A stretch of 64,000 bases of DNA, from positions 1 through 64,000 of IMG/VR virus record IMGVR_UViG_3300006916_000046; one strand, given 5' to 3'. The position numbers and the translations under genes are program-made. Source of the DNA: a virus. Below, piece after piece: positions 3,934 through 29,327 of this stretch. Each line of letters begins with the position of its first letter. Position 1 is the first letter of the stretch. A model generated the notes under the pieces. That model was not told the DNA's origin and searched no databases. It saw only the letters and a program-made list of their open reading frames with translations.

Positions 3934-3962
3934 TTGACTAAATAAGGTATAAGGTCTATAAT
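3934..3962 (+). promoter_or_regulatory. Sigma70-type promoter of the riboswitch unit
   Basis: TTGACT, 17-bp spacer, perfect TATAAT. The expected transcript start is around 3969, i.e. directly at the beginning of the aptamer-like leader at 3971. Confidence 0.8.
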
Positions 3963-3970
3963 AGACCTGT

Positions 3971-4044
3971 CGTTCATCCAAGAGGCAGTCGCTGTGCACA
4001 TAGCATAGAAAGACACATCTGGACGCAAGTAAGTCGCGGAACGG
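3971..4044 (+). promoter_or_regulatory. Glutamine-riboswitch-like leader (glnA / Downstream-peptide class), copy 1
   Basis: The leader begins CGTTCATCC and ends GGACGCAAGTAAGTCGC GGAACGG. CGTTC (3971-3975) pairs with GAACG (4039-4043) and ATCC can pair with GGA, which is the closing-stem layout of the glutamine-binding glnA and Downstream-peptide RNAs known from cyanobacteria and cyanophages. The AAGTAAG segment resembles their conserved AAGTAGG bulge. The call rests on memory of the consensus, not on a covariance-model search. Confidence 0.6.
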
Positions 4045-4046
4045 AG

Positions 4047-4252
4047 CGTTCATCCTATGATTGAGTTACTACTATTAGCTAATTTACATAGTCCTCCAAA
4101 CATGACTTGTCAGCAAGTTAGAGAGGTGGCAGAAACCGTACTGGATTCTGATATGTCTCAACAAGATAAGCAAAGATTCTTATCTCGTTTGTTTGGACAG
4201 CATATGATGCTAAAGTGTCTTAAGAAATAGGACGCACACGACTGAAGGAACG
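4047..4252 (+). promoter_or_regulatory. Split second copy of the riboswitch-like leader enclosing an ORF
   Basis: The 5' half CGTTCATCC recurs at 4047-4055 and the 3' half GGACGCA...CTGAAGGAACGG at 4230-4253. CGTTC (4047-4051) and GAACG (4248-4252) again pair perfectly. The complete 57-codon ORF 4057-4230 fills the interval, its TAG overlapping the first G of GGACGC. Functional status is unknown; the AGTAAG bulge is absent from this copy. Confidence 0.5.
4057..4230 (+). CDS. Small protein encoded inside the split leader
   Basis: A 57-residue helical protein (starts MIELLLLANLHSPPNMTC, ends FGQHMMLKCLKK). It begins 2 nt after the 5' half-motif and its stop overlaps the 3' half-motif. The length fits the short downstream peptides associated with this leader class in marine cyanobacteria and phages. 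No function known; probably an early, glutamine-responsive phage product. Confidence 0.7.
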   Translation: MIELLLLANLHSPPNMTCQQVREVAETVLDSDMSQQDKQRFLSRLFGQHMMLKCLKK

Positions 4253-4290
4253 GGAGATTAAATTCACCCTAGTATTTCAGGAGAAACACA

Positions 4291-4458
4291 ATGAATACAC
4301 TTCTCATGATCAAGAAGCAGATCGACAAAGCATCTGCACTTCACGACGCTCAAATTGCTCATACTGCATATCGTGGTGTTGAGTATAACGTATGTGGTCA
4401 TGAACCACATGAGACTCACGGTACATTCTGCTATCGTGGTCATACTTATAACAAGTGA
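4291..4458 (+). CDS. DUF4278-like small protein
   Basis: A 55-residue protein with a helical N terminus (MNTLLMIKKQIDKASALHD) and two YRGxxY signatures (AYRGVEYNV and CYRGHTYNK) that are the hallmark of the cyanobacterial DUF4278 family. A GGAG ribosome-binding site lies 8-9 nt before the ATG. It follows the second leader half-motif and is bounded downstream by a terminator, so it is the main downstream gene of the riboswitch unit. Biochemical role unknown. Confidence 0.7.
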   Translation: MNTLLMIKKQIDKASALHDAQIAHTAYRGVEYNVCGHEPHETHGTFCYRGHTYNK

Positions 4459-4481
4459 ATTACTTGTATTAGAATGCATAG

Positions 4482-4507
4482 GAGAGGTTGACTACCTCTC
4501 TTTTTTT
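4482..4507 (+). terminator. Intrinsic terminator carrying the next promoter's -35
   Basis: GAGAGGT/ACCTCTC 7-bp stem, 5-nt loop TGACT, then seven T. The loop and stem edge contain TTGACT, the -35 of the following promoter. Confidence 0.85.
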
Positions 4508-4516
4508 GTCTATAAT
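4488..4516 (+). promoter_or_regulatory. Sigma70-type promoter overlapping terminator
   Basis: TTGACT at 4488-4493, 17-bp spacer made of the terminator's 3' arm and T-run, then TATAAT at 4511-4516. Predicted start near 4523, 15 nt before the next ATG. Confidence 0.75.
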
Positions 4517-4537: not shown

Positions 4538-4711
4538 ATGGATAGAGATAAATTAAAACTCATCATCAAAAACATGGAACTCCTTCTCGATTCTTTGAAA
4601 GCAGAAGTGCTTTCTGAACCTGAATCGTACTTACAGGGAGAATACTTAAATTATCCACAAATTACTGACTATGATGAGGTATTTGATGATGACGATGGAT
4701 ACCCCGATTAA
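4538..4711 (+). CDS. Small acidic phage protein
   Basis: A 57-residue protein (MDRDKLKLIIKNMELLLDSL...). An N-terminal amphipathic helix is followed by an acidic tail ending DEVFDDDDGYPD. It sits directly behind the composite terminator/promoter and just ahead of the next ORF. No family recognised; the predicted transcript start and clean spacing support it. Confidence 0.6.
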   Translation: MDRDKLKLIIKNMELLLDSLKAEVLSEPESYLQGEYLNYPQITDYDEVFDDDDGYPD

Positions 4712-4715
4712 AAGT

Positions 4716-4895
4716 ATGTACGAAGAATTAAATTGCTTCGAAGAAGCCCTTAAACATTTCGGAACTAGAGTAGAGTTTGCTATTGCTATGGAGATGGGTA
4801 GAAAACTGACTCCAGAAGAAGCATATCAAATTATCAAAACTGAACTAAAAGCATTAAAATCCTGTCGTAAGAAATTTAAAAAAGATGAATGTTAG
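4716..4895 (+). CDS. Conserved small helical phage protein
   Basis: A 59-residue all-helical protein (MYEELNCFEEALKHFGTRVEF...) ending in a basic cluster (CRKKFKKDEC). ATG 4716 lies 4 nt after the upstream stop; ATG 4695 is an alternative adding MDTPIKS. Its 3' end overlaps the thyX start. Unknown function, likely co-expressed with thyX. Confidence 0.65.
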   Translation: MYEELNCFEEALKHFGTRVEFAIAMEMGRKLTPEEAYQIIKTELKALKSCRKKFKKDEC

Positions 4896-28817: not shown

Positions 28818-28889
28818 GGGAGTGTCGCATATTGGTTAATGCCCATGCCTTATAAGCGTGTGAACCGAGTTCAATTCTCGGCATTCCCA
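28818..28889 (+). tRNA. tRNA-Ile (UAU)
   Basis: 72-nt cloverleaf: acceptor GGGAGTG/CATTCCC with one G-T pair, T arm CCGAGTTCAATTCTCGG, anticodon loop CTTATAA giving UAU (reads AUA). No CCA encoded. Confidence 0.85.
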
Positions 28890-28891
28890 CT

Positions 28892-28966
28892 TGCTCCTTT
28901 AGCTCTCTGGTGAAAGCTCTCTGCTCATAACAGAAGAAAGGTCAGTTCGATCCTGACAAGGAGCAC
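28892..28966 (+). tRNA. tRNA-Met (CAU)
   Basis: Cloverleaf with acceptor TGCTCCT/AGGAGCA, anticodon stem TCTG/CAGA and loop CTCATAA giving CAU; T arm GTCAGTTCGATCCTGAC. A paired first base argues against an initiator; a lysidine-modified Ile2 cannot be excluded. Confidence 0.8.
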
Positions 28967-28968
28967 TC

Positions 28969-29040
28969 GGGTGATTGGCGCAGAGGTAGCGCAGTAGATT
29001 TACATTCTATTGGTCACTGGTTCGAATCCAGTATCACCCA
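28969..29040 (+). tRNA. tRNA-Val (UAC)
   Basis: Acceptor GGGTGAT/ATCACCC, anticodon stem TAGA/TCTA with loop TTTACAT giving UAC; T arm CTGGTTCGAATCCAG. 72 nt. Confidence 0.88.
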
Positions 29041-29044
29041 CCTT

Positions 29045-29327
29045 GCGAGTATGGTGGAATCGGTAGACACACCAGACTTATGAAAATTGAGCCTCATTTG
29101 AGAAATCTTATGAGTGTAACTCCTCAAATTCGGGGAAACCTGTAAAATGGCAATCCCGAGCCAAGCATCGCAAGATGAAGGTGTAGAGACTAGACGGGGA
29201 GCACCTAAACCGAAAGGTATGGTGAAGGGATAGTCCAGACCACAAACCGTAAGGGCAAGGAAACTTGTAGTGGTAAGAAAATCTGTTGACCATTGCGGTC
29301 GTGGGAGTTCAAGTCTCCCTACTCGCA
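29045..29327 (+). tRNA. tRNA-Leu (UAA) interrupted by a group I intron
   Basis: Exon 1 is 29045-29079 and exon 2 29278-29327. Joined, they give acceptor GCGAGTA/TACTCGC, anticodon stem CAGA/TCTG and loop CTTAAAA with anticodon UAA, a Leu-type variable arm (TTGACCATTGCGGTC) and T arm GGGAGTTCAAGTCTCCC. The intron sits between U34 and A35, the classical site of cyanobacterial and plastid tRNA-Leu introns. Confidence 0.9.
29080..29277 (+). ncRNA. Group I intron (IC3-like) in tRNA-Leu
   Basis: 198 nt, ending in G. The core elements are present in order: P AATTCGGGGAAACC (29127-29140), Q around GCAATCCCGAGC (29150-29161), R GTGTAGAGACTAGA (29181-29194), S AAGGGATAGTCC (29225-29236). Exon CTT can pair with GAG in AATTGAGCC to form P1 with a terminal U-G. 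No endonuclease ORF inside. Confidence 0.88.

Follow-up and report, generated by a model that had tools for sequence, protein, structure and literature searches.

The two motif copies previously described as tandem glutamine-riboswitch-like leaders are almost certainly two halves of one nested RNA, as judged from how their strands covary among related phages. We consider it likely that this RNA is a single phage class I glutamine riboswitch with a gene in one of its arms, that it acts as a glutamine ON switch and, with less certainty, that it may be coupled to translation of the embedded gene (ORF B). The stretch of DNA analyzed here (64,000 nucleotides [nt]; termed the window herein) is part of an 89-kb virus record, and its gene content is like that of cyanophage S-B05 at the same locus (photosystem II D2, glutaredoxin, ThyX thymidylate synthase, and PhoH). 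The two motif copies, the ORF, and the promoter were all found where they had been predicted. The 5′ half, CGTTCATCC, lies at 3971 to 3979 (copy 1) and 4047 to 4055 (copy 2), and the 3′ halves are GGACGCAAGTAAGTCGCGGAACGG (4021 to 4044, copy 1) and GGACGCACACGACTGAAGGAACGG (4230 to 4253, copy 2). The exact 5′ half occurs at only these two places in 64 kb; near matches are frequent by chance, and it is the conservation across phage records that shows the copies not to be chance occurrences. A 298-base query matched 423 phage records, nearly all of them named Synechococcus or Prochlorococcus phages, and pattern scans of IMG/VR gave at least 120 matches to the copy 1 3′ half and at least 120 to the copy 2 3′ half. 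The features of the locus are listed below; the suffixes 1 and 2 denote the copy.

3934 to 3962, + strand: sigma-70-type promoter (TTGACT, 17 bp, TATAAT), with the same layout upstream of most relatives.
3971 to 3975, + strand: 5′ strand of outer P1 (CGUUC-1), predicted to pair with 4248 to 4252.
3977 to 4023, + strand: outer P2 arm (UCCA...UGGA), a plain 39-nt hairpin in the window.
4024 to 4031, + strand: CGC (C4026 in a putative long-range pair with G4253) and AAGUA, the 5′ side of the outer E-loop, aligned to the RF01739 consensus CGGAAGUA in ORF-less relatives.
4032 to 4036, + strand: 5′ strand of P3 (AGUCG), predicted to pair with CGACU at 4239 to 4243.
4039 to 4051, + strand: inner P1 hairpin (GAACG-1 at 4039 to 4043, loop GAG, CGUUC-2 at 4047 to 4051).
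4053 to 4058, + strand: 5′ strand of inner P2 (UCCUAU), predicted to pair with 4227 to 4232.
4057 to 4230, + strand: ORF B, 57 codons (57 amino acids), in the inner P2 arm, with a hydrophobic N terminus and two cysteines.
4227 to 4232, + strand: 3′ strand of inner P2 (AUAGGA), including the ORF stop codon UAG (4228 to 4230).
4233 to 4238, + strand: CGCACA with the second CGC, which may pair with GCG at 4036 to 4038 or dock as a strand of a second glutamine site.
4239 to 4252, + strand: 3′ strand of P3 (CGACU), GAAG (3′ side of the E-loop), and 3′ strand of outer P1 (GAACG-2, 4248 to 4252).
4242 to 4247, + strand: anti-Shine-Dalgarno strand CUGAAG, predicted to pair with UUUCAG at 4275 to 4280 in the ligand-free fold.
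4275 to 4283, + strand: strand UUUCAGGAG with the Shine-Dalgarno AGGAG of the DUF4278-like gene.
4291 to 4458, + strand: DUF4278-like gene (55 amino acids), the putatively regulated gene.
4480 to 4507, + strand: intrinsic terminator, the end of the transcript unit.

Read from the outside in, the element is CGUUC-A-P2-CGCAAGUA-P3(AGUCG)-inner part-P3(CGACU)-GAAG-GAACG-G, and the P3 arm leads to a second junction, which consists of a small inner hairpin and the ORF B-bearing arm. Each copy had been proposed to close with its own CGTTC-GAACG stem; comparison of the locus in other cyanophages confirmed that the element is conserved and at the same time revealed that the partners are swapped between the copies, in 170 of 170 distinct relatives. 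Since most relatives do not vary in P1, natural variants were scanned for on purpose. Among 300 occurrences, GAACG-1 changed to CAACG exactly when CGTTC-2 changed to CGTTG, and GAACG-2 changed to AAACG exactly when CGTTC-1 changed to CGTTT, the few CGTTG-1 entries and some CGTTT-1 entries being misassignments to the P2 loop or to ORF A. With the ORFs cut out, the swapped P1 helices paired in all 170 distinct rows, with C-G to U-A changes on both sides of the outer helix and, in 44 rows and with no exception, G-C to C-G changes on both sides of the inner helix; the own-copy registers paired in 125 to 126 rows and mispaired in 44 to 45. One relative (L206) has the outer P1 change without the inner one. 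The case for nested pairing is that paired change has no exception in either P1 helix and that the two helices change in different combinations. Scored on 40 distinct rows with a counting tool whose shuffles ignore the relatedness of rows, the nested structure paired 98.0% of cells, with both-side change at 10 pairs, compared to 92.8% and no both-side change in either P1 helix for the tandem structure. RNAalifold recovered the nested fold unaided, and it also paired the GCG beside P3 (4036 to 4038) with the second CGC. Inner P2 covaries at its fourth pair (C-G/U-A). P3 is paired in 169 of 170 rows at its terminal pair and in 170 of 170 at the other four, and since it is nearly invariant, with few variants (G-U), it itself contributes little covariation.

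The outer fold has the features expected of a class I (glnA kind) glutamine aptamer (RF01739), with P1, P2, E-loop, and P3, and we assign it to this class on that resemblance. The CGUUC/GAACG closing helix is formed by the outer pairing, with changes on both sides; P2 follows directly after CGUUCA, and all five of its pairs covary; and the E-loop is represented by AAGUA (4027 to 4031) and GAAG (4244 to 4247) in the window, with AAAG for GAAG in many relatives. Glutamine is very probably the ligand of the putative outer aptamer. The predicted relationship to glutamine riboswitches was borne out by the relatives that lack an ORF, 10 of 12 of which scored 38 to 46 bits for RF01739 (cutoff, 35) as a single composite match; in place of the two tandem aptamers that had been proposed, the alignments point to one class I aptamer whose P3 arm carries a second junction. 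In the ORF-less phage ACG-2014f (41.1 bits for RF01739), the inner part appears as an insert in P3. The Infernal searches of the window itself gave scores below the gathering cutoffs for copy 1 (15.0 bits for RF01739, cutoff 35; 13.7 bits for RF01704, cutoff 33) and no match to either model for copy 2, and Rfam at gathering score over the whole window found nothing at the locus. By the refutation test set out with the original prediction, this failure of the single copies would have ruled the prediction out; its cause is the insertion of the ORF, and none of 18 ORF-bearing loci reached the RF01739 cutoff. Because its RF01739 score is below gathering, the window element is filed as a variant and not as a member by score. 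Gene-bearing relatives never pass Rfam, so annotation pipelines overlook such split elements: phage S-SCSM1 carries both halves, and its genome paper names only PhotoRC-II and wcaG (PMC9602691).

A class II assignment (downstream-peptide RNA, RF01704) fits less well. The class II model was passed by 1 of the 12 ORF-less relatives (34.0 bits), and the class II P2 enclosing GGAACGG with its CGUUC pseudoknot was absent, the P2 positions of the model being deleted or mispaired. We also considered and rejected a class II copy 2 with CUGAA/UUCAG as its P2. This helix is real, but it encloses 30 to 60 nt and has no linker to GGAACGG, and it is therefore better read as an anti-Shine-Dalgarno helix.

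ORF B begins one base past the second 5′ half, and its TAG (4228 to 4230) overlaps the second GGA; in the window, A4057 and U4058 of the start codon are matched by U4228 of the stop codon and by A4227. The ORF thus lies inside a folded RNA, as had been suggested, but in the arm of the inner junction and not in a second aptamer. The relatives all share one order of parts. The promoter is followed by the first 5′ half, a short hairpin or a gene, and the first 3′ half; then come the second 5′ half, a gene, the second 3′ half, and the DUF4278-like gene. An ORF-sized insert was present in the second copy of 160 and in the first copy of 39 of 171 classified loci, and plain hairpins in both copies of 10, counts that are not unbiased frequencies since the loci were selected by pattern. 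Among 255 loci with an ORF-sized insert, the ATG is directly behind the inner 5′ half in 253, the insert length is in frame in 250, and the stop codon is a TGA or TAA inside CGACTGA (P3 and E-loop) in 242. In 10 of the 255, it is a TAG just before the 3′ half; the window belongs to this class, and its ORF B stops upstream of P3, unlike that of most relatives. The median dN/dS of ORF B is 0.22, compared to 0.75 and 1.62 for the other frames. On these comparisons of sequences, ORF B is a real gene family kept in an RNA arm. Its last codons, GAC GCA AAC GAC (DAND), are nearly frozen synonymously (GCA in 162/162, AAC in 131/131, and GAC in 318/324 cases), whereas elsewhere in the gene the same amino acids use GCA, AAC, and GAC 44%, 24%, and 26% of the time. 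This freezing of synonymous sites suggests that the letters act as both protein and RNA, so that in most relatives the same letters would be RNA of the putative binding site as well as the last codons and the stop codon.

The ORF B products have 50 to 66 amino acids, a hydrophobic N terminus, and two conserved cysteines. About a quarter of the relatives (about 40 loci) carry a complete second gene, ORF A, in the outer P2 arm, and its start-side and stop-side letters covary (TCC/TAGGA, TCT/TAAGA, and TCT/TGAGA). Profile comparison indicated that the ORF A and ORF B families are homologous (E about 1e-8). No Pfam match was obtained for ORF A or ORF B products; PHROGs of unknown function match most of them, and the ORF B of the window had no PHROG match. 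AlphaFold2 predicted a hydrophobic N-terminal helix followed by a two-helix hairpin (pLDDT 78 to 79), and comparison of the models with the PDB gave no significant match.

Promoter, RNA element, ORF B, DUF4278-like gene, and terminator form a self-contained unit, and from the position of the promoter transcription is expected to start at about 3969, at the first copy. An inverted repeat, GGTCTATAATAGACC (3953 to 3967), encloses the −10 box; its arms vary among phages yet remain complementary (GGTCTATAATAGACC, TATGGTATAATAACCATA, TGTCATGCTATCATGACA, and CGTAGCAATTTGCTACG). Arms of at least 6 were found in 116 of 165 distinct loci and in about 5% of shuffles, with the repeat allowed anywhere in the last 28 bases and a few repeats not at the −10 box. 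A second promoter (TTGACT-17-TATAAT, 4488 to 4516) overlaps the terminator and would start the next small gene (4538 to 4711); the gene behind this small ORF (4671 to 4895) matched Pfam DUF7219 (73.9 bits). Farther along the window, at 28818 to 29259, three tRNA genes are followed by a group I intron match (63.3 bits; cutoff, 50).

When 84,980 genomes were scanned for the exact pattern of the inner core, four contigs were returned, none labeled cyanobacterial. A cellular origin was rejected since these four look like phage contigs in metagenome-assembled genomes or assemblies. The loci L318, L319, L320, and L321 are cyanophage contigs apparently binned or assembled into records named Saprospiraceae, Nonlabens, and Euryarchaeota.

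The gene downstream of the element matched PHROG 545 (E = 1.3e-32) and scored below the Pfam cutoff for DUF4278 (PF14105; 20.6 bits, gathering 25.3, E = 5.9e-4); on the strength of this E value and of the PHROG match, we call it DUF4278-like. As predicted, a DUF4278-like (YRG) gene is next downstream, in 220 of 220 distinct loci, with its Shine-Dalgarno mostly 7 to 9 bases ahead of the ATG. In the aptamer, CURAAG belongs to P3, the E-loop, and P1; its possible alternative partner is a CUUYAG that continues into AGGAG. At the variable position, A occurs only with U (42 loci) and G with C (75) or U (53), and AAAG always goes with UUUAG (42/42). The downstream strand was chosen by motif search, which biases the percentage of pairing upward; the A/G-U/C coupling was not imposed by it. 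The lowest-energy ligand-free fold uses this anti-Shine-Dalgarno pairing in 11 of the 12 ORF-less relatives and likewise in the window, and the nested aptamer lies 0.3 to 8.3 kcal/mol above it in the ORF-less relatives. A translational ON switch would be expected to have such an alternative in its ligand-free fold, and ON control of the DUF4278-like gene by glutamine seems fairly likely from this arrangement. Against it, the OFF fold pairs no more of the ribosome-binding site than its ends (AG of AGGAG). Both classes of glutamine riboswitch activate expression and precede DUF4278 genes in cyanobacteria (PMC6316151).

Two kinds of insertion were seen around the end of the element. About 26 of the 220 distinct loci (e.g., L053, L060, and L205) have an extra short hairpin block, AACGGATCC-N-GAGAAGGTT, in the expression platform, between the last GAACG and the DUF4278 start. 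In five loci (L087, L140, L236, L246, and L256), an HNH-endonuclease-like gene with its own CGTTCATCCC is inserted at the aptamer end, just past the GGAACG or GGAAC of the last half; in phage Sf-FS3, an HNH endonuclease is annotated under the match. The aptamer may be a homing site.

In the mechanism that we propose, without glutamine the CUGAAG of the last aptamer strand would pair with UUUCAGGAG and hide the ribosome-binding site of the DUF4278-like gene; with glutamine, CUGAAG would be held in P3, E-loop, and P1, leaving the site free, and the DUF4278-like protein would be made. With less certainty, ORF B would be read from the same transcript, the folded aptamer would hinder its translation because this begins within the inner hairpin and arm, and ribosomes on ORF B would melt the inner arm, and P3 as well in most relatives, undoing the aptamer. 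Folding and translation should exclude each other, given that ORF B starts in the inner hairpin and arm and mostly terminates inside P3 and the E-loop. In this way, the RNA would balance the glutamine signal against translation, and the two genes would respond oppositely. It had been suggested that translation of the ORF disrupts the second aptamer; a clash with the fold is still expected, but there is no self-contained second aptamer to disrupt. Whether mutual exclusion with ORF B translation is itself a selected control we regard as nearly balanced, with the weight slightly against. Several points speak against the proposed mechanism: an inner P2 of 5 to 6 bp closes a loop of 160 to 190 nt, which carries an energy cost, a translated loop would often be open, and the GGAG (4043 to 4046) that lies upstream of the ORF B start in the inner hairpin of the window is missing in many relatives (loops GTTC, GAAC, GAA, and GAT). 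Glutamine-rich infected cells are likely to make the phage DUF4278-like protein; if it resembles the DUF4278 proteins of the host in its role, it may bear on the control of glutamine synthetase.

A possible, if unlikely, alternative is that the element has two glutamine sites, an outer class I site and an inner, circularly permuted one sharing P3, with the inner site composed of GAACG-1, CGUUC-2, and CGC-2; glutamine could then bind cooperatively and control the start of ORF B directly. The core letters that PMC6698751 describes for the site are all found in the inner junction, and CGC-2 is frozen beyond coding need. The RNAalifold pairing of CGC-2 with GCG (4036 to 4038) would, however, be enough alone to explain this conservation, and four loci have CGA instead. 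P1 variation of the type CGUUG/CAACG occurs in known aptamers too, and the inner P1 varies in the same way. The inner junction nevertheless has no E-loop, and the 3- to 4-nt loop capping the inner stem may be too tight. The loop is GAG in the window and GTTC, GAAC, GAA, GAT, or GAUU elsewhere. A translation-gated form of the two-site riboswitch, with glutamine binding and translation of the embedded gene mutually exclusive and the embedded and downstream genes opposed, is doubtful.

It is improbable that ORF B is a leader peptide only, whose translation and not its product matters: its fixed position and a stop codon inside the aptamer would suit such a role, but purifying selection acts across the whole protein, two cysteines are conserved, ORF A is homologous, and at least 10 loci have neither ORF. 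Still less credible is the view that the RNA halves are mainly a recombination handle, for swapping small genes or landing homing genes, with regulation secondary. Different ORF families do lie between the same ends, and HNH-type genes are inserted at GGAACG in several relatives, but a handle needs no compensatory changes in P1 and P2, no E-loop, no anti-Shine-Dalgarno helix, and no constant DUF4278 gene. Two tandem self-contained aptamers with their own CGUUC-GAACG stems, the second split by the ORF, can hardly be the answer: both copies have the core letters CGUUCA, CGC, and GGAACGG, copy 2 alone scores 32 to 34 bits for RF01704 (cutoff, 33) in a few ORF-less relatives, marine metagenomes are reported to contain tandem glnA RNAs (PMC2864571), and a mismatch costs only one of five stem pairs, which would permit a transient tandem fold, but the own-copy mismatches are repaired by the swapped pairing, copy 1 lacks the E-loop GAAG and copy 2 lacks AAGUA, Infernal aligns the ORF-less relatives as one composite, and the tandem fold was less stable in 11 of 12 constrained folds. 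The single nested class I riboswitch remains our preferred reading.

Riboswitch aptamers are normally regarded as compact, untranslated leaders. Here, hundreds of marine phages have a conserved, putative aptamer whose arms hold complete protein genes, which suggests that cyanophages widely read host nitrogen status, and the element allows a direct test of competition between ribosome and ligand for one RNA. With the glnA RNA (RF01739), it shares P1 (CGUUC/GAACG), P2, the AAGUA/GAAG E-loop, and P3, and class I RNAs of cyanobacteria likewise lie upstream of a DUF4278 gene (PMC6316151); glnA RNA has previously been annotated in cyanophages by Rfam search (PMC9964418). It differs from RF01739 in that P3 leads to a second junction, that one or two complete genes lie in the arms, that the form with a gene is undetectable by the Rfam model, and that the predicted long-range pair is the C:G of class II in place of the G:C of class I (C4026:G4253 corresponds to the long-range pair of PMC6698751). 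The class II RNA (RF01704) has the same core letters (CGUUCA/CGCA/GGAACGG) and the C:G long-range pair, and it too is found upstream of small DUF4278 proteins in marine picocyanobacteria, but the phage element lacks the P2 hairpin around GGAACGG that forms the pseudoknot. In motif order, the tandem glnA RNAs of marine metagenomes (PMC2864571) are like the phage element, with two copies in a row; the phage copies exchange strands.

In a literature search with limited coverage of subscription papers, we encountered neither a riboswitch aptamer whose arms hold complete genes nor a strand-swapped double glutamine element. A glutamine riboswitch upstream of DUF4278 was already known; the complete genes in aptamer arms and the strand-swapped double element are apparently new. 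Group I introns carry ORFs in their peripheral loops, with termini shared by RNA and coding sequence. The likeness to them is that a protein gene is lodged in a loop of a structured RNA; the phage element differs in having no splicing and no homing function in ORF B, and its host RNA is a putative ligand-sensing leader.
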